64,000 bases of DNA, taken from NCBI RefSeq assembly GCF_019175385.1, contig NC_083346.1, positions 55,209,821 to 55,273,820 on the forward strand, written 5' to 3'. This stretch comes from Lycium barbarum (taxonomy: Eukaryota; Streptophyta; Magnoliopsida; Solanales; Solanaceae). Within the stretch, counting starts at the first letter, position 1, and each line of letters starts with the position of its first letter. The position numbers and the translations under genes are program-made. Under the pieces are notes generated by a model. That model saw only the letters and a list, made by a program, of their open reading frames with translations, ran no database searches and had not been told where the DNA came from. Positions 4,521 to 64,000 of the stretch are shown piece after piece.

Positions 4521-4560
4521 CCTGTTTATAAGTGTGGCGCGCAACACACCCATAACCAAG
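4521..4560 (-). other. E1 leader hairpin with GCGCGC loop
   Basis: On the minus strand a 9-nt arm and a 7-nt arm pair with their counterparts around an 8-nt loop TTGCGCGC. The self-complementary hexamer is at 4537-4542. There is one G-A mismatch and several G-U pairs. The position, about 45 nt from the PBS, and the architecture match all other leaders in the window. Confidence 0.75.
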
Positions 4561-8777: not shown

Positions 8778-8816
8778 CTTATTTATGGTGTGTTGCGCGC
8801 CACGCTAATAAACAAG
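8778..8816 (+). other. E2 leader hairpin with GCGCGC loop
   Basis: A 9-bp lower stem (one mismatch) and a 6-bp upper stem with one bulged A enclose loop TTGCGCGC, with the hexamer at 8795-8800. The conserved leader box GATCGTGCGATAGAGC follows at 8861-8876. Confidence 0.75.
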
Positions 8817-18966: not shown

Positions 18967-19006
18967 CTTGTTTATCGATGTGTTGTGCACCACATCTATA
19001 AACAAG
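18967..19006 (+). other. E3 leader hairpin with GTGCAC loop
   Basis: A 9-bp stem CTTGTTTAT/ATAAACAAG, one C-T mismatch and a 6-bp stem GATGTG/CACATC close loop TTGTGCAC, with the hexamer at 18985-18990. The conserved box GATCGTGCGATAGAGC follows at 19049-19064. Confidence 0.82.
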
Positions 19007-21621: not shown

Positions 21622-22946
21622 AAAACAAAGGCCCAGTTTGAAATCTCGCCTGAAGGAGTATTATTATACGACGGCAGATCCTGTGTACCGGGCATTGCGG
21701 GCTTACGACGGTAGATTATGGGCGAGGCACATCATGCACGGTATTCTGTTCGTCCTAGTTCCACTAAGATGTATCGGGATCTCAGCTGTTTGTATTGGTG
21801 GGACGGCATGAAGAAAGATATTGCCGAGTTTGTTAGTCAGTGCCCAAAATGCCAACAAGTTAAGATCGAGCATCAGAAGCCCGGTGGATTACTACAGGAG
21901 ATGGAAATTCCAGCCTGGAAATGGGAGATGATTAATATGGACTTCATTGTTGGGTTGTCGCGTACTCTACGCAGGTACGACTCTATTTGGGTTATTGTGG
22001 ACAGGCTGACGAACTCAGCCCATTTTCCTTCCGGTCCGGACTCTTTATTCGCCTGAGGATTATGCCAGATTATATATCAGAGGGATAGTCAGACTTCACG
22101 GAGTCCCTGTATTATTACTGACCGAGGTGCCCAGTTTACAGATAATTTCTGGAGGTCATTTCAGGAGGGATTAGGGACTCAGGTGAGCCTCAGTACAACT
22201 TTTCATCCTCAGACTGACGGGCCTGCGTTATTGGTTTCAGGGGCAGCTGGGATGATCATGTGCCGCTTATAGAGTTTGCCTACAATAGCAGTTATCACTC
22301 CAGCATTCAGATGGCCCCGTACGAGGCCCTTTATGGCAGGAGATGTAGATCTCCTATTGGTTGGTTTGACGTCGGCGAGACTAAGTTGGTTGGGCCAAAT
22401 GTGATCCAGGAAGCTGTAGATAAGGTGAAGTTTATTCGGGAGCGACTATTGGCTGCTCGGAGCCAACTGAAAGCTTATGCTGATAGACGACGTCGACCGT
22501 TGGAGTTTTAGATTGGCGACTGGGTATTCCTGAAGGTGTCGCCCATGAAGGGCGTTATGAGATTTGGCAAGAAGGGTAAGTTGAGCCCGCGGTACATCGG
22601 GCCATACCAGATTGTTCGGAGGATAGGCGCAGTCGCCTACGAGCTACACTTGCCATCCGATTTGGAGGCCGTGCACCCGGCGTTTCATGTATCTATGTGG
22701 CGGAAGGGTAATGGTAATCTTTCCAGGATATTCCCAGTAGATGATCTTCCGGTGACGGAGCAGTTGTCTTATGACGAGCAGCTGGTGGCTATTCTGGATC
22801 GTCAGGTGAGGAGATTGCGCACTAAGGAGGTGCCTTCTGTCAAAGTTCTATGGCGCAATAATAACCGGGAAGAGATGACTTGGGAGGCGGAGGATGAGAT
22901 GAAGAAGCGATACCCCCATTTATTTCCTACGCCTCTTGTAATCTAG
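21622..22946 (+). pseudogene. E3 integrase and chromodomain remnant
   Basis: The only coding remnant of E3. It begins near FEISPEGVLLYDGRSCVPG. A TAG at 21712-21714 interrupts it. Zinc-binding His positions read VRPSSTKMYRDL, so both His are replaced by Arg, while CPKCQQVK is kept. The catalytic region NMDFIVGL is followed by a frameshift near 22040. A deletion of some tens of bases near 22218 removes the segment with the catalytic Glu. TAG at 22509-22511 precedes the GPY/F part. From 22536 the chromodomain (VKVLWRNNNREEMTWEAEDEM) is intact to the stop at 22944-22946. Confidence 0.92.
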
Positions 22947-30744: not shown

Positions 30745-30784
30745 CCTGCCTATAAGTATGGTGCACAACACACCCATAGACAAG
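30745..30784 (-). other. E4 leader hairpin with GTGCAC loop
   Basis: CTTGTCTAT/ATAGGCAGG and GGGTGTG/CATACTT pair around TTGTGCAC, with the hexamer at 30761-30766. A T-A pair of the other copies is C-G here, so pairing is kept. Confidence 0.75.
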
Positions 30785-34262: not shown

Positions 34263-34425
34263 TGCAGCTCTATCGCACGATCTAGAACAAGAAAGAAAGG
34301 TTGCTAATCCTTAAAGTCCTGTAGCCTCCTGCTTATAAGTGTGGCGCGCTACACACCTATAAACAAGACTAAACTAGACACGGCTCATAGACATCCCTAG
34401 GACAAACCTGCACTGATACCAAGTT
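34263..34425 (-). other. Isolated leader with PBS and GCGCGC hairpin
   Basis: A 163-nt piece carrying the full leader signature on the minus strand: PBS at 34410-34421 (one mismatch), hairpin 34328-34367 with hexamer GCGCGC at 34344-34349, and the box GATCGTGCGATAGAGC near 34266-34281. No Gag-Pol follows; an LTR U3 start abuts it. This is the scar of a deletion or template switch between leader and 3' LTR. Confidence 0.8.
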
Positions 34426-44780: not shown

Positions 44781-44813
44781 CTTATACGTGTTGGCGCCAC
44801 ACACATATAAAAG
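44781..44813 (-). other. E5 leader hairpin with GGCGCC loop
   Basis: TTATAT/GTATAA and GTGT/ACAC stems enclose a loop containing TGGCGCCA (44792-44799), again self-complementary but different from the other elements. Confidence 0.65.

Positions 44814-48037: not shown

Positions 48038-48089
<52 letters not shown>
48038..48089. repeat. (TA)26 microsatellite
   Basis: Uninterrupted TA dinucleotides. Confidence 0.98.
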
Positions 48090-48090
<1 letters not shown>

Positions 48091-48355
48091 GTATTCCCTC
48101 ATTGTTAATTCCCGTCCTTGTGTCATCCTACAAGGTAAACATTAAATTCTAAACATATTCCCTTGTCGGTTGTACTGATAACCTAAAAGAAGCTGGCGTT
48201 ATTAAACAATTCATATATATATTTACACGTATTCTCTCATTCTTAATTCCCGTCCTCGTGTCATCCTACATGGTAAACGATAAATTCTGAACGTATTCCC
48301 TTATCGGTTGTACTCATAACCTAAAAGAAGCTAGAGTTATTAAACAATTCACCTT
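48091..48355. repeat. 138-bp tandem duplication
   Basis: GTATTCCCTCATTG...AACAATTCA starts at 48091 and again, with a few differences, at 48229. The first copy abuts the TA microsatellite. Confidence 0.85.
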
Positions 48356-53177: not shown

Positions 53178-53217
53178 CTTGTTTATCGGTGTGTTGTGCA
53201 CCACATCTATAAACAGG
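53178..53217 (+). other. E7 leader hairpin with GTGCAC loop
   Basis: CTTGTTTAT/ATAAACAGG and GGTGTG/CACATC close loop TTGTGCAC, with the hexamer at 53196-53201. Conserved box at 53261-53276. Confidence 0.8.
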
Positions 53218-57808: not shown

Positions 57809-60457
57809 TGTTATATCCCGTATTTCGCACATTCGGAAAAAATTTGAAATAATTGTGACTTGTAAGAGGTAAGGCCATATTATGATTTTAATTAACATAT
57901 AGGTTGTTCATGAAAGGTCTTGGTGTGGAAATATGGAGGAAGGCCAAGGGCAAAATTGGGAATTTCGGAAATTAGTTTCGGGAATTACAAATTATGATCC
58001 ATCATTAATTGGGCTCAAAAAAAACATTGAGGCCCAATATTTAGAAGGGTGGCCGGCCATAGTCCATTAAGATGAGCCCAAGCCCATGTTTTAATTCAAG
58101 TCATGTGGTAATTAAAAAAATAAAGGGGCCACGGTTCATTCTATACCATTCATGAAAACAAAAATAAAAAAATAAAAAAGAGCAAGAACAAAAGGAGGGG
58201 GGTTTCGGCCCCTTCAAGAAAAAGAGAAAAAAAAATTCCAAGTCCTTCAATTGTGATCCAAAAATCATGATTTTCTAGCAATATTACTAACTCAAGGATG
58301 CTCTTCAACATGATATAAGTTTTAAGGAAAGAAAGTGCTTGTGTTGGCAAGTGGAAGTTTGAAGAAGATTGGACAAAGAGGTAAGAATCAATTCCTTTTT
58401 ATTATGTTATGAAGGTTTGTTTGTGTTGTAGTATGTAGAAATGAATAAAAAGTGTGAAATTGATGTGTTATGGGTGTGTTTGTATGTGGCCGGATGTGGT
58501 GGGTGTTGGAGAGAAGATGAATTTATTTTACTTAGTGTATTAATTGTGTTGTTGTGTTCTTATGGGGTAAATGAAGGAGAATAGTTCAAGTTGGTATGAA
58601 AATCCATTGTTAAGTTGTTGTAGGAAAATATACAACTTTATTATAGTTTATGTAATTATGAGAATGCAATTGTAAGATGCAAATTGTTGTTGTTGTAAAT
58701 GAAATTGAGGATAAGAATATGCTGTGGATGTTTATGTTGAAGATTGGAAGTTTAGGTGAATTATGGTTTTGGTGGAAGTTTGTATATTTTGTGAATATTT
58801 TGTAGAAACGATATGAAATGCTTCCGAATTGTATTGTGATGATCTTGGTTGGGAATGAATATGGAATATTGGTATTGATTTGAAAATGGGAAGTTGGAAT
58901 AAAAGATATTGCGTTATGTTGGAAAGAAAATTAGTTATGCTATAATGTATTTTGTGATGATGGTTGATGTTGTTGGTATTGTTGGGTTGTTGTTGTCGAC
59001 ATTTTGGGCCGAGATGATTCTCGGGGCAGCGAAATTATAGGGGAAATGCTGCCCAAATTTTTTTGTAGATAAGTGATGAACTAAAGATTTGAATGCTAAA
59101 AGTCTTACTATTGACAATTGGTAAATATGACCATTTGTAGATTTTGGGCGAAACGAGAATTGAGTTTGGACGAGCATAAGGTGCAAGTGAGGTATGTAAA
59201 GCTATCCCTTTTCTTCTCTTGGCATGTCCTAGGTGTACTAGATTCGGATTTGAGCCTCGTAGGTTATTCTGCTCATGGGAATGCGAGTCTGAATTTTTGG
59301 TACTATTCATTCAGCACAATTGAATTATAGCCCTTAAGTTTTGTTGGAAAACTGTTCAAACATCCATAACCCGTACAGACGTGATCGGCTCTCTTTGAAA
59401 CCTTCATGGATGACTCCATAGAGCCCAATGTTTGTAATTTATATCCGCCACCTCGACTTGACCCGAGGCGGGCCCACAAGTTCCTAAACTTCCTACGTTT
59501 GTCTCACTTGAGCTATTTTTGTATGATATAAAAGTAAGACTTTCGTCTATGAATCTAAGACTCCGTTTGATTCATTCCATAAGTCATTGGAAAGCTCCTT
59601 AATGTGAATATCCTGATGTGAGCATGTAATTCGATATAAGGAGTCTGCTATGAGTAATCTGATATAGGTATGTTAATAGAAACATCCTGACACAGGTAAT
59701 CTGATATAAGTATCCGAAATAAGTATTCGGTTATAAATAATTTGTTACGAATATCCTGGTAATACATTCGATTCCTTCATCGGGTTTTAATTTATGTGCA
59801 CCTAGTTTCTTACTAATCCGCTCGTATATACGCTATGATCCCTTTCACCTAGTTCCGGGCCGGTATGTATCGTGCGTATGGTTCGCCGAGTCCTTTGTCT
59901 AGGAGTCGGGTTCCATGTATGTAATTTCAAAGTATGATGTGTCCGACTCCGGGGTACTGTGGTATATGTCCGTCCCCGGTTGCCGTGTATATGGAGTATG
60001 ATGTGTTCGGTTCCGGAGTACTGTGGTATATGTCCGTCTGCGGTTACCGTGTACGGTTCTGGGGTACTGTGGTATATGTCCGTCCCCAGTTGTTGTGTAT
60101 ATAGATTATGATGTGACTGGTCCTCGGGTTCTCGTGGTATATGTTCGGTTCCCGAGATACCGTATACATGTTATGAAATCTTCTGGAGCATGGTGTGTTA
60201 TGGCGCCAGAGACGGGAGTGGCGACCATGTTCCTCCGCCCTTTGTTTGACTTTGGTATGCATCAGTTGTGGTTGAAAAGTAAGTATTCTGATATTCGGGA
60301 TAAGCTACTTACCTTTGGCATTTTTCTGATATACGATTTTGGTATACATGAATCTATTCACCGAGTCCCTCACCGAGAGCCGGGGCACGTTGTATGTATG
60401 TGTGATGCATGATTCTGAACTGTGTGATTTATGTTTGGAAAGTAATAAATTTGGTTA

Positions 60458-60745
60458 TTGACCGCTGGACCCCTGACCGCGGTGTGTGCGACATTGACCG
60501 CTGGACCCCTGACCGCGGTATGCCGCACTATGTGATATTGACCGCTGGACCCCTGACCGCAGTATGTGCGACATTGACCGCGGTATGCCGCATTTGTGAT
60601 GTTGACCGCTGGACCCCTGACCGCGGTATCTGCGTCATTAACCGCTGGACCCCTGACCGCGGTATGTCGGGTTTGGGATGCTAACCGCTGGACACTTGGT
60701 CGCGGTATGTGTTATAGTGACCGCTGGACTTTTGGCCGCAGTAAT
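60458..60745 (+). repeat. GC-rich minisatellite in E8 LTR
   Basis: About eight units of 28-44 bp, each with TTGACCGCTGGACCCC or a relative, then TGACCGCGGTATG. CCGCGG palindromes recur. The last two units are diverged. Confidence 0.92.
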
Positions 60746-60962
60746 TGTGTGTTTGATATTCTGTGTGTATGAGACGAAAACGTTTTTCAAAGGAAAGCAA
60801 AGTATTTTGGCATTTTGATTGCCGTATTTGTCTTCCGGAACCTTTTATGTATGATTTGTACGTCAGATGCAACACTTTGGTATTCTGGCTATTGTGCTCA
60901 CCTTCTGTACATTTTACTTCGGTTATGGCTTCATTTTTTTTGGTGTTTCATGCCTTACATTC

Positions 60963-61000
60963 TCAGTACATATTCCGTACTGACCCCCTTTCTTCGGGGG
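60963..61000 (+). other. Tandem stem-loops in E8 LTR
   Basis: TCAGTAC/GTACTGA (loop ATATTCC) then CCCCC/GGGGG (loop TTTCTTC), as in E3 and E7. Confidence 0.7.
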
Positions 61001-61423
61001 CTGCGTTTCATGCCGCGCAGGTTCTCCCAGATGAGTTGAAGATATTATAGAAGATGTTCCAGCGAGGATGGCAAGCTCCATTTGCTCCCGGAGAATTGCC
61101 GAGTCAGAATATATGTGTTAAAGGTTCTGTTAATGTTAGAGACTTTGCAGACAGATTCGTGGGTTTTGGTTGTCAGTCAGTAAGCGGCTCCGTCAGCCGA
61201 TATGTCGGTTTGTGTTATGTACTGGATTTTGTATGATCATAAATTTGTTCGGCTTGGAAGCTACGAGAAAGAATATTTCAAAAAACAATTTATTATGTAT
61301 TTTATCTTATTTGATTTAAAAAGTTTGATGTGATTTTATGCACAGCAAAGTCTGAGGGTTCGCTCGGCCCTAAGTAAGGGTCGGGTGCCCATCACACCCT
61401 AGTAAGGTTGGGGTGTGACAAAG

Positions 61424-61435
61424 TGGTATCAGAGC
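61424..61435 (+). other. E8 primer-binding site
   Basis: TGGTATCAGAGC, perfect, three bases inside the LTR. Confidence 0.93.
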
Positions 61436-61479
61436 AGGTCTGTCCTAGGGGTTGTCTGCAAAGTCGTGTCTGGTAGAGT

Positions 61480-61517
61480 CCTGTTTATGGTGTGTAGCGC
61501 GCCACATTATAAACAGG
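61480..61517 (+). other. E8 leader hairpin with GCGCGC loop
   Basis: A perfect 9-bp stem CCTGTTTAT/ATAAACAGG runs into GGTGTG/CACATT (two G-U pairs) and loop TAGCGCGC, with the hexamer at 61497-61502. Conserved box at 61563-61578. Confidence 0.85.
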
Positions 61518-61578
61518 ATGCTACGGGGCATTTAGGGATTGTTGACCTTTTTTCCGTAATAAGATCGTGCGATAGAGC

Positions 61579-61926
61579 CAAGACATAGGAAAAATAAAAC
61601 CGTTTCCGTAAGCCTTACATACGATGGAGAAGGGTAAGTGATGATATGGAAAGGTCACGAGGACAAGTCTGGATGTATTTGATCTGTTACCTGAGACAGA
61701 ATGTTCTGGGTGGCTAGAATATGATATATAGGTGTATGCTCTATAAGGTGTTGTTAGTATTTGCTGTGTACAGATTTCGGATGATAAGAATTTGTAAAGG
61801 CGACTATTGAAGACCAAAAAGGGTAAAATGGTAATTGTAAAAGAAGGAACGTATTACGAACATGCCTCGGAATCTGTAAGACCTCGATTCGCCCTGAATC
61901 ATGTAATAAAGACCATAGGAGAAAGT
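61579..61926 (+). other. E8 internal non-coding region
   Basis: No open frame of interest. TTAGTATTTGCTGTGTACAG (about 61748-61767) and the segment before 61927 are recognisable in E3, showing a shared internal scaffold. Confidence 0.6.
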
Positions 61927-62030
61927 GGACGTGATTATGTTGGTATTAAGGCACCGAATTCCGCCAACGTTTCGGGGTTAAGCGTGCTAAAGTGGAAGGA
62001 TGGGTGACCCCCTGGGAAGTGTGCTAAATA
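61927..62030 (+). pseudogene. 5S rRNA-derived sequence inside E8
   Basis: From GGACGTGATTAT onward it matches plant 5S rRNA without gaps for about 68 nt, including TTAAGGCACCG and GGTTAAGCGTGCT. A deletion of about 9 nt follows, then GGATGGGTGACC and CTGGGAAGT (box C region). Many differences are C-to-T or G-to-A transitions. The 3' tail after GGGAAGT is not recognisable. Confidence 0.82.
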
Positions 62031-62240
62031 CTCTAAAGATTTAGCTGTCAGAGACAAATGAAAAGGATAGAGTAACCAAAAGGGAAATTAGCGTATGAGG
62101 AATGGTTAGAGACCCTAAACGGCCAGATTGTCGTGACAATTGGTAATCTGGAAATTTTTTAAAGAAAGAAAGAACGCAGCGCCTGTGGATGAAGATAGAG
62201 GGACCCTCCCGAAGTACTATAATACCCCATAAGGTCAGTT

Positions 62241-62277
62241 GAACATTCGAGGACGAATGTTCTAAAGGGGGGTAGGA
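62241..62277 (+). other. E8 pre-PPT hairpin and polypurine tract
   Basis: GAACATTCG/CGAATGTTC with loop AGGA at 62241-62262, then AAAGGGGGGTAGGA at 62264-62277. The stretch 62031-62240 is non-coding. Confidence 0.85.
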
Positions 62278-64000
62278 TGTTATATCCCGTATTTCGCACA
62301 TTCAGAAAACATTTGAAATAATTGTGACTTGTAAGAGGTAAGGCCATATTATGATTTTAATTAACATATATGTTGTTCATGAAAGGTCTTGGTGTGGAAA
62401 TATGGAGGAAGGCCAAGGGCAAAATTGGGAATTTCGGAAATTAGTTTCGGGAATTACAAATTATGATCCATCATTAATTGGGCTCAAAAACAAAAAGAAA
62501 TTGAGGCCCAATATTGAGAAGGGTGGCCGGCCATAGTCCATTAAGATGAGCCCAAGCCCATGTTTTAATACAAGTCATATGGTAATTAAATAAATAAAGG
62601 GGCCATGGTTTATTGTAGACGATTCATGAAAAAAAAATAAAGAGCAAGAACAAAAGGAGGGGGGTTTCGACCCCTTCAAGAAAAAGAGAAAAAAATTTCC
62701 AAGTCCTTCAATTGTGATCCAAAAATCATGATTTTCTAGCAATATTACTAACTCAAGGATGCTCTTCAACATGATATAAGTTTTAAGGCAAGAAAGTGCT
62801 TGTGTTGGCAAGTGGAAGTTTGAAGAAGATTGGAGAAAGAGGTAAGAATCAATTCCTTTTTATTATGTTATGAAGGTTTGTTTGTGTTGTAGTATGTAGA
62901 AATGAATAAAAAGTGTGAAATTGATGTGTTATGGGTGTGTTTGTATGTGGCCGGATGTGGTGGGTGTTGGAGAGAAGATGAATTTATTTTACTTAGTGTA
63001 TTAATTGTGTTGTTGTGTTCTTATGGGGTAAATGAAGGAGAATAGTTCAAGTTGGTATGAAAATCCATTGTTAAGTTGTTGTAGGAAAATATGCAACTTT
63101 ATTATAGTTTATGTAATTATGAGAATGAAATTGTAAGATGCAAATTGTTGTTGTTGTAAATGAAATTGAGGATAAGAATATGTTGTGGATGTTTATATTG
63201 AAGATTGGAAGTTTAGGTGAATTATGGTTTTGGTGGAAGTTTGTATATTTTGTGAATATTTTGTAGAAACGATATGAAATGCTTCCGAATTGTATTGTGA
63301 TGATCTTGGTTGGGAATGAATATGAGAATGTTGGTATTGATTTGAAAATGGGAAGTTGGAATAAAAGATATTGCGTTATGTTGGAAAGAAGATTAGTTAT
63401 GCTATAATGTATTTTGTGATGATGGTTGATGTTGTTGGTATTGCTGGGTTGTTGTTGTCGATATTTTGGGCCGAGATGATTCTCGGGGCAGCGAAATTAT
63501 AGGGGAAATGCTGCCCAAATTTTTTTGTAGACAAGTGATGAACTAAAGATTTGAATGCTAAAAGTCTTACTATTGACAATTGGTAAATATGACCATTTGT
63601 AGATTTTGGGCGAAACGAGAATTGAGTTTGGACGAGCATAAGGTGCAATTGAGGTATGTAAAGCTATCCCTTTTCTTCTCTTGGCATGTCCTAGGTGTAC
63701 TAGATTCGGATTTGAGCCTCGTAGGTTATTCTGCTCATGGGAATGCGAGTCTGAATTTTTGGTACTATTCATCCAGCACAATTGAATTATAGCCCTTAAG
63801 TTTTGTTGGAAAACTGTTCAAACATCCATAACCCGTACAGACGTGATCGGCTCGCTTTGAAACCTTCATGGATGACTCCATAGAGTCCAATGTTTGTAAT
63901 TTATATCCGCCACCTCGACTTGACCCGAGGTGGGCCCACATGTTCCGAAACTTCCTACGTTTGTCTCACTTGAGCTATTTTTGTATGATATAAAAGTAAG
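62278..64000 (+). repeat. E8 3' LTR (cut by window end)
   Basis: Starts TGTTATATCCCGTATTTCGC. Aligns to 57809-59538 with few substitutions and small indels near A-rich runs. Donor-like GAG/GTAAGAATC at 62842 and GAG/GTATGTAAAG at 63654. Confidence 0.92.

Follow-up and report, generated by a model that had tools for sequence, protein, structure and literature searches.

Does the hairpin that recurs in the leaders of LTR retrotransposons in Lycium barbarum, with a loop hexamer that changes and remains self-complementary, serve to bring two element RNAs together? The question was raised by a first-pass annotation of a 64,000-nt stretch of the genome (hereafter the window), in which eight such leader hairpins were described as candidate RNA dimerisation signals. 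All sequences analysed here were taken from one genome of 1.67 Gb, the one that holds the window.

Domains of gag, protease, reverse transcriptase, RNase H and integrase were found in the window when elements E1, E2, E3 and E7 were pooled, and a chromodomain was detected in the C-terminal frame of E3 (22701-22943, + strand; Pfam Chromo, E 2.9e-6, 27.5 bits against a cut-off of 25.1). Because the chromodomain ends the E3 frame, the window elements are assigned to the plant chromoviruses (Ty3/gypsy), on domains pooled over these four elements and a chromodomain seen in E3 only. Elsewhere in the window, two tandem 138-nt copies with 90% identity occupy 48075-48350.

E8 is organised differently. 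Its 5' LTR extends from 57809 to 61414 (+ strand), the far end being placed from the primer binding site (PBS) and from the match of LTR ends in other copies, which gives an inferred LTR length of about 3.6 kb. The 3' LTR starts at 62278 and runs past the window end at 64000, and the repeat (57809-59538 and 62278-64000) is 97% identical over the part that lies within the window. The whole internal region is 863 nt (61415-62277, + strand), and none of its three forward frames is free of stops for more than 69 aa. Of 40 matches to this family, the best 8, one of them the window copy, were checked; all eight loci carried the hairpin, and in each the next LTR began equally far away. E8 therefore appears, from its sequence, to be a non-autonomous element without gag/pol that has spread in the genome, and the spread of such a family with the hairpin kept argues for a cis-acting RNA role.

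When the window was read base by base, the eight leader hairpins were all confirmed with respect to coordinates, strand and loop. By sequence and computed fold, the loop hexamer is GCGCGC in E1 (4521-4560, - strand; hexamer at 4537-4542), in E2, whose stem is imperfect (8778-8816, + strand; 8795-8800), and in an isolated leader (34328-34367, - strand; 34344-34349). It is also GCGCGC in E8, where it occupies 61497-61502 within an 8-nt apical loop, TAGCGCGC (61495-61502, + strand). GTGCAC is found in E3 (18967-19006, + strand; 18985-18990), E4 (30745-30784, - strand; 30761-30766) and E7 (53178-53217, + strand; 53196-53201), and GGCGCC in E5, which belongs to a second lineage (44781-44813, - strand; 44793-44798).

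An exact TGGTATCAGAGC lies at 61424-61435 (+ strand) in E8, which we take to be a primer binding site of the initiator-Met tRNA type. The hairpin starts at 61480, leaving 44 nt between the two, in agreement with the proposed spacing of 40-50 nt. The 9-mer TATCAGAGC is named as a Met-tRNA PBS in the accessible portion of an earlier report (PMC2829016). The leader is framed by TGGTATCAGAGC and by a conserved downstream motif with a GATCGTGCGATAGAGC core (61561-61578, + strand, in E8), with mismatches in either of them in some of the eight copies; the downstream motif served as a search anchor. The sequence near GATCGTGCGATAGAGC, in E8 and at the equivalent places of other leaders, vaguely resembles the PBS (ATCAGAGC). 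No match to Rfam was obtained in the window at the gathering threshold.

Computed folding places a stem-loop close to the PBS in the 5' leader. Its inner helix (P3) had been seen in the first-pass annotation, but the whole unit is larger, outer helices P1 and P2 bringing it to about 70 nt. RNA folding placed the structured unit of E8 at 61466-61533 (+ strand), in which the P1 strand GTGTCT (61466-61471) pairs with GGGCAT (61526-61531), the P2 strand GTAG (61473-61476) pairs with CTAC (61521-61524), and the 5' strand of P3 (61478-61494) forms 17 pairs with 61503-61519; the 3' strands of P3, P2 and P1 together occupy 61503-61533. A similar shape was obtained for all eight window leaders (68-71 nt folded each), with the hexamer open in an apical loop of 8 nt, or 9 nt in E5. 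P1 has 6 bp in five copies and 4 bp in three, P2 has 4 bp in most, P3 has up to 17 bp, and the stem is broken up by short internal loops. In E4, P1 is kept through changes on both strands (GUAUCC/GGAUAU versus GUGUCU/GGGCAU in E8).

The folding z-scores of the eight leaders were -3.4, -2.0, -6.6, -6.3, -4.1, -2.6, -5.8 and -7.3, the weakest being that of E2 (-2.0) and the strongest that of E8 (-7.3). The 39-nt core of E2 alone folded into a different shape with a 3-nt loop, and the hexamer returned to the loop when 69 nt were folded. The RNAalifold consensus of 52 leaders (alignment A2, described below) contained P3 and three P2 pairs with the hexamer open; P1 was missing from it. In the consensus of 38 E5-type leaders, the stem slipped or the loop closed over part of the hexamer. 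Folded singly, 13 of 20 E5-type copies kept the hexamer open, and in the other 7, which included all three GGCGCC copies and two GGGCCC copies, the GT-rich stem slipped or the loop partly closed on the hexamer.

The genome was searched for first-lineage leaders with the pattern TAGAGTC-N(75-90)-GATCGTGCGATAGAGC. The 5' anchor of this pattern lies over the base of P3 and a portion of P2 and leaves the upper stem and the loop free. As a result, 20,522 matches were obtained, and none with the reversed control. Loops were read from the first 100 matches in chromosome order (C1), which is not a random sample. Two were unreadable, and 82 of the remaining 98 were exact palindromes (GTGCAC 57, GCGCGC 24, GCCGGC 1), the 16 non-palindromic loops comprising hexamers with at most three copies each. 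Column shuffles, which in both lineages ignore the relatedness of the rows, gave a mean palindrome fraction of 0.43 and a maximum of 0.61 in 2000, compared with 0.84 observed. A second set of 98 loci, biased to E8, whose nearest relatives account for 40 of them, yielded 74 palindromic loops among 90 (GCCGGC twice) after 8 loci with an unreadable loop had been dropped. Further material consisted of 80 shortened leaders from a search with too short a gap. The two bases 5' of the hexamer varied in this lineage (TT, TA, AA, TG, TC). One locus on C2 (L192) has an E2-like stem with GTGCAC in place of GCGCGC, which may have arisen by a separate switch or by recombination between leaders of different loop type. 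TCACGC, two changes off a palindrome, was found in two E2-like copies (L202 and C1:22982380) and may mark a small non-palindromic family.

For E5-type leaders, a pattern anchored on the outer helices gave 683 matches, with none in the reversed control. The loops were again read from the first 100 matches in chromosome order (C1-C2), not a random sample, and 7 were dropped for their unusual length, the hexamer being intact in some of these. Exact palindromes made up 73 of the 93 standard-length loops (GGGCCC 41, GCGCGC 24, GGCGCC 8), and each non-palindromic hexamer among the other 20 occurred in at most two copies. The palindrome fraction was 0.78, compared with a mean of 0.35 and a maximum of 0.51 in column shuffles. 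Among E5 relatives, the 40 that were scored out of 2384 candidates (window copy included, and partly the same places as the 93 loops) carried 31 palindromes (GGGCCC 24, GGCGCC 7) and nine different singletons. The 5' arm TTTTATATGTGTG was common to 33 of 41 GGGCCC, 21 of 24 GCGCGC and 6 of 8 GGCGCC copies, and the 3' arm CACACATATAAACAG was present in 9, 12 and 5 copies, respectively; the three palindromes were thus found in identical stem arms. The single base that precedes the hexamer in loops of the 1+6 form was variable (A, T, C or G).

A sub-lineage with the arms TTTATGTGTGTG/CACAYATGTAAA was found at 43 places, of which 11 carried strict palindromes (GCGCGC 9, GCATGC 2). Its second commonest loop, GCGTGC (7 copies), is self-complementary solely via G.U pairs. 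It could be an old, decayed group or a family that relies on G.U pairing; the former is suggested because departures of the G.U type (10) and the A.C type (11) were about equal in number. The earlier description of the hexamer as always self-complementary therefore holds for the eight window loops but not for the genome, where the share was 82/98, 73/93 and, in this sub-lineage, 11/43. The more general expectation was upheld, in that palindromes were about twofold above column expectation in both samples read.

Five palindromes recur, namely GCGCGC, GTGCAC, GGGCCC, GGCGCC and GCCGGC, of which GGGCCC and GCCGGC are additional to the three of the first-pass annotation. They share a first G, a last C and self-complementarity, and no further sequence, and no non-palindromic hexamer exceeded three copies in the samples of 98, 93 and 40 loops. 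These observations bear on an alternative in which the hairpin controls packaging or translation by binding Gag or a host protein that reads the loop, the palindrome being incidental. The position of the hairpin behind the PBS, its retention in a non-autonomous family and the short internal loops that interrupt its stem would all suit such a site. However, five hexamers are in use whose common trait, beyond the first and last base, is self-complementarity, and the paired transversions that separate some of them are left unexplained; a protein site of this kind is accordingly considered unlikely.

It had been argued that a switch between loop types needs two coordinated changes, so that palindromy itself seems selected. 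Two changes suffice in general, but GGCGCC and GCGCGC are four apart. By arithmetic, 135 hexamers lie two changes from GCGCGC and 9 of these are palindromes. A palindrome could also be a by-product of mutation, if inverted repeats are perfected by repair on the hairpin template, or by template switches in the course of reverse transcription, and CpG deamination converts GCGCGC to GTGCAC. The latter conversion indeed amounts to two CpG transitions, and many scattered variants are one CpG transition away from GCGCGC. On the other hand, GGCGCC/GGGCCC and GCGCGC/GCCGGC differ through paired transversions, on both sides of the hexamer, which CpG decay does not give, and loops of the form GG[CG][CG]CC were palindromic in 49 of 49 cases in the E5-type sample and in 31 of 32 among the 40 E5 relatives. 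Moreover, templated correction would symmetrise the sequence on the stem axis, whereas the symmetry axis of the hexamer is offset from it by 0.5 nt in 7-nt loops and by 1 nt in 8-nt loops. Palindromy therefore does not follow from the inverted repeat of the stem, and the loop palindrome appears to be out of register with the stem pairing, as it would be in a kissing loop.

Across the three samples, 45 loops were not palindromic, with 14 departures of the G.U type, 14 of the A.C type and 17 of neither, a split that post-insertion decay predicts and that counts against the by-product explanation. Because of this split, and because no supported group of the leader tree shares such a loop, the scattered non-palindromic loops look like decay after insertion. 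The tree was built from 122 leaders with the loop columns removed (14 of 128 loci were dropped; the E5 loop was misregistered and not counted), and its 16 non-palindromic rows were scattered. It was poorly resolved, with 6 starred branches among 114 inner branches, and gave one independent contrast for loop positions 2/5 on supported branches. With E5 left aside, the best tree has at least eight changes among palindromic types, but it is too weak for a firm count. In view of the offset axis, the paired transversions and the decay-like split of the 45 loops, we regard a mutational origin of the palindromes as very improbable.

Stem pairing was analysed in two alignments. For A2, 28 of 128 loci had less than 95% of the hairpin, leaving 100, from which 51 near-duplicates were removed; 5 of the 49 representatives were then dropped (one duplicate of the window E8 and four with broken outer stems). 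A4 comprised 38 of 40 E5-type copies, without L312 (9-nt loop) and the window E5. The proportion of paired stem cells, which is pushed up by leaving out broken copies, was 93.6% in A2 (35.6-50.8% with slid partners) and 96.6% in A4 (32.4-53.5%), where the counted structure has an advantage over the slid versions, being derived from the same sequences. Double changes in the stem were confined to 8 cells in 7 pairs in A2 and one cell in A4, and most stem change was one-sided via G.U. In A4, doubly changed pairs numbered 2 compared with 1.9 in shuffles, which is not above the shuffles (319/500), and pair types behaved likewise (149/500). The proposed covariation of the stem was thus weakly borne out: the contrast with slid partners and the tolerance of G.U speak for it, but the double changes are few and in A4 their number is not in excess of the shuffles. 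In the loop, pair 2/5 of A2 was C-G in 26 rows, U-A in 20, U-G in 2, not paired in 3 and a gap in 1, and pair 3/4 of A4 was G-C in 24, C-G in 7, G-U in 1, U-G in 1 and other in 4.

The stem cells of A2, which are not independent of one another, contained 223 G.U and 25 A.C combinations, or 58 and 21 when pairs that are mostly G.U were excluded. Because G.U is far above A.C, a bias that is not expected of a DNA cruciform, the constraint appears to act on the sense RNA. A feature of the leader DNA, either a cruciform or a dyad-symmetric protein-binding site, is thereby made highly improbable, even though the region forms an inverted repeat that is long and almost perfect, and the accessible text of one study likens Sirevirus palindromic repeats to cis-acting transcriptional activators (PMC2829016).

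The best-supported explanation is that the hairpin is a kissing-loop dimerisation or packaging signal of plant chromoviruses, and we consider this candidate role probable. The palindrome excess and the several loop types within the same stem argue for the role as first proposed. The weak covariation of the stem counts against it, as do the sub-lineage with 11/43 strict palindromes and the closing of the loop in some E5-type folds. As a cis-acting RNA element 44 nt past the PBS in E8, the leader hairpin would offer a GC-rich self-complementary hexamer through which two genomic RNAs could start to pair by a loop-loop contact of 6 bp, either in the course of their packaging into the virus-like particle or ahead of it. 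The resulting loose RNA dimer would then be captured by Gag and perhaps later be extended through the stem. The sequences and computed folds show the hairpin, its place, its recurrence and the excess of palindromic loops; the kissing contact, the dimerisation and its coupling to Gag binding and packaging are what we infer. Among the 64 palindromes, computed RNA duplex stability ranked GGGCCC first, GCCGGC second, GGCGCC third, GCGCGC fifth and GUGCAC twenty-first.

Retroviruses are well known to carry dimerisation signals, and such signals have also been put forward, and tested, for the yeast elements Ty1, which is copia-type, and Ty3. Like HIV-1 SL1/DIS, the hairpin sits in the 5' leader and has a GC-rich palindromic hexamer in its apical loop and a stem interrupted by an internal loop. 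The HIV-1 DIS loop has the form 2+6+1, whereas the loop found here, by sequence and computed fold, has the form 2+6 or 1+6, the hexamer running straight into the 3' strand of the stem, and its flanking bases vary where those of HIV are conserved purines. According to the available text of PMC5874298, HIV-1 loops are mainly GCGCGC, GUGCAC and GUGCGC and require central G-C pairs, which agrees with the earlier statement that GCGCGC and GTGCAC are also HIV-1 dimerisation loops; all five recurrent loops described here have two central G-C pairs. The likeness is read as convergence, and homology is not claimed.

The dimerisation site of Ty3 (DS/PAL6, CUGCAG, nt 391-396), examined by deletion and SHAPE, is described in the accessible part of its report as a palindrome that a short hairpin carries in its apical portion, with a kissing-loop model (PMC11381356). 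Ty3 has in common with the present elements the Ty3/gypsy type and the apical palindrome, but the site here, known from sequence and computed fold, lies just behind the PBS and has several loop types per genome. In Ty1, loop-loop contacts close to the 5' end of the RNA start its dimerisation, as stated in the text available (PMC5454406).

In barley, conserved dimerisation and packaging signals have been invoked for BARE2, a parasite that produces no Gag of its own and has its RNA packaged in BARE1 particles (PMC3735527). The likeness is that of a plant LTR retrotransposon with invoked signals, and the part of that account at hand gives no hairpin or loop and points to earlier work (PMC3735527); BARE is placed in the copia superfamily in the accessible text of a review on the LTR elements of plants from 2025 (PMC12786077), the main text of which contains no word starting with "dimer". 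A plant quadruplex paper mentions dimerisation in general terms alone in the portion available (PMC3902901). Among the titles and passages that the literature searches listed, with few subscription journals covered, no such hairpin was found for plant Ty3/gypsy elements, and for plants only the barley BARE signals were mentioned. A 15-base pattern matched 52 and at least 120 stretches in bacterial, archaeal and viral contigs, among which a single locus fitted the leader frame, by chance. Two further contig scans gave no match. The 15-base pattern was too short for the one scan of genome contigs. The variety of loops within one genome is unusual.

Since several loop types coexist, a rule by which like pairs with like is possible. 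Loop types would then be compatibility types: a shared loop would let RNAs be packaged together and recombine, and different loops would not. We offer this reading tentatively and hold it to be rather doubtful. If it is true, loop switches such as those among GGGCCC, GGCGCC and GCGCGC in one stem would split a family into sub-populations that package separately, and elements without gag, such as E8, would have to match the loop of the element that supplies the particles. More than 20,000 matching leaders with at least five palindromic loop types amount to a mutagenesis of loop-loop pairing carried out by nature, which makes it testable which plant RNAs pair, are packaged together and recombine, and what gag-less elements need in order to be carried.
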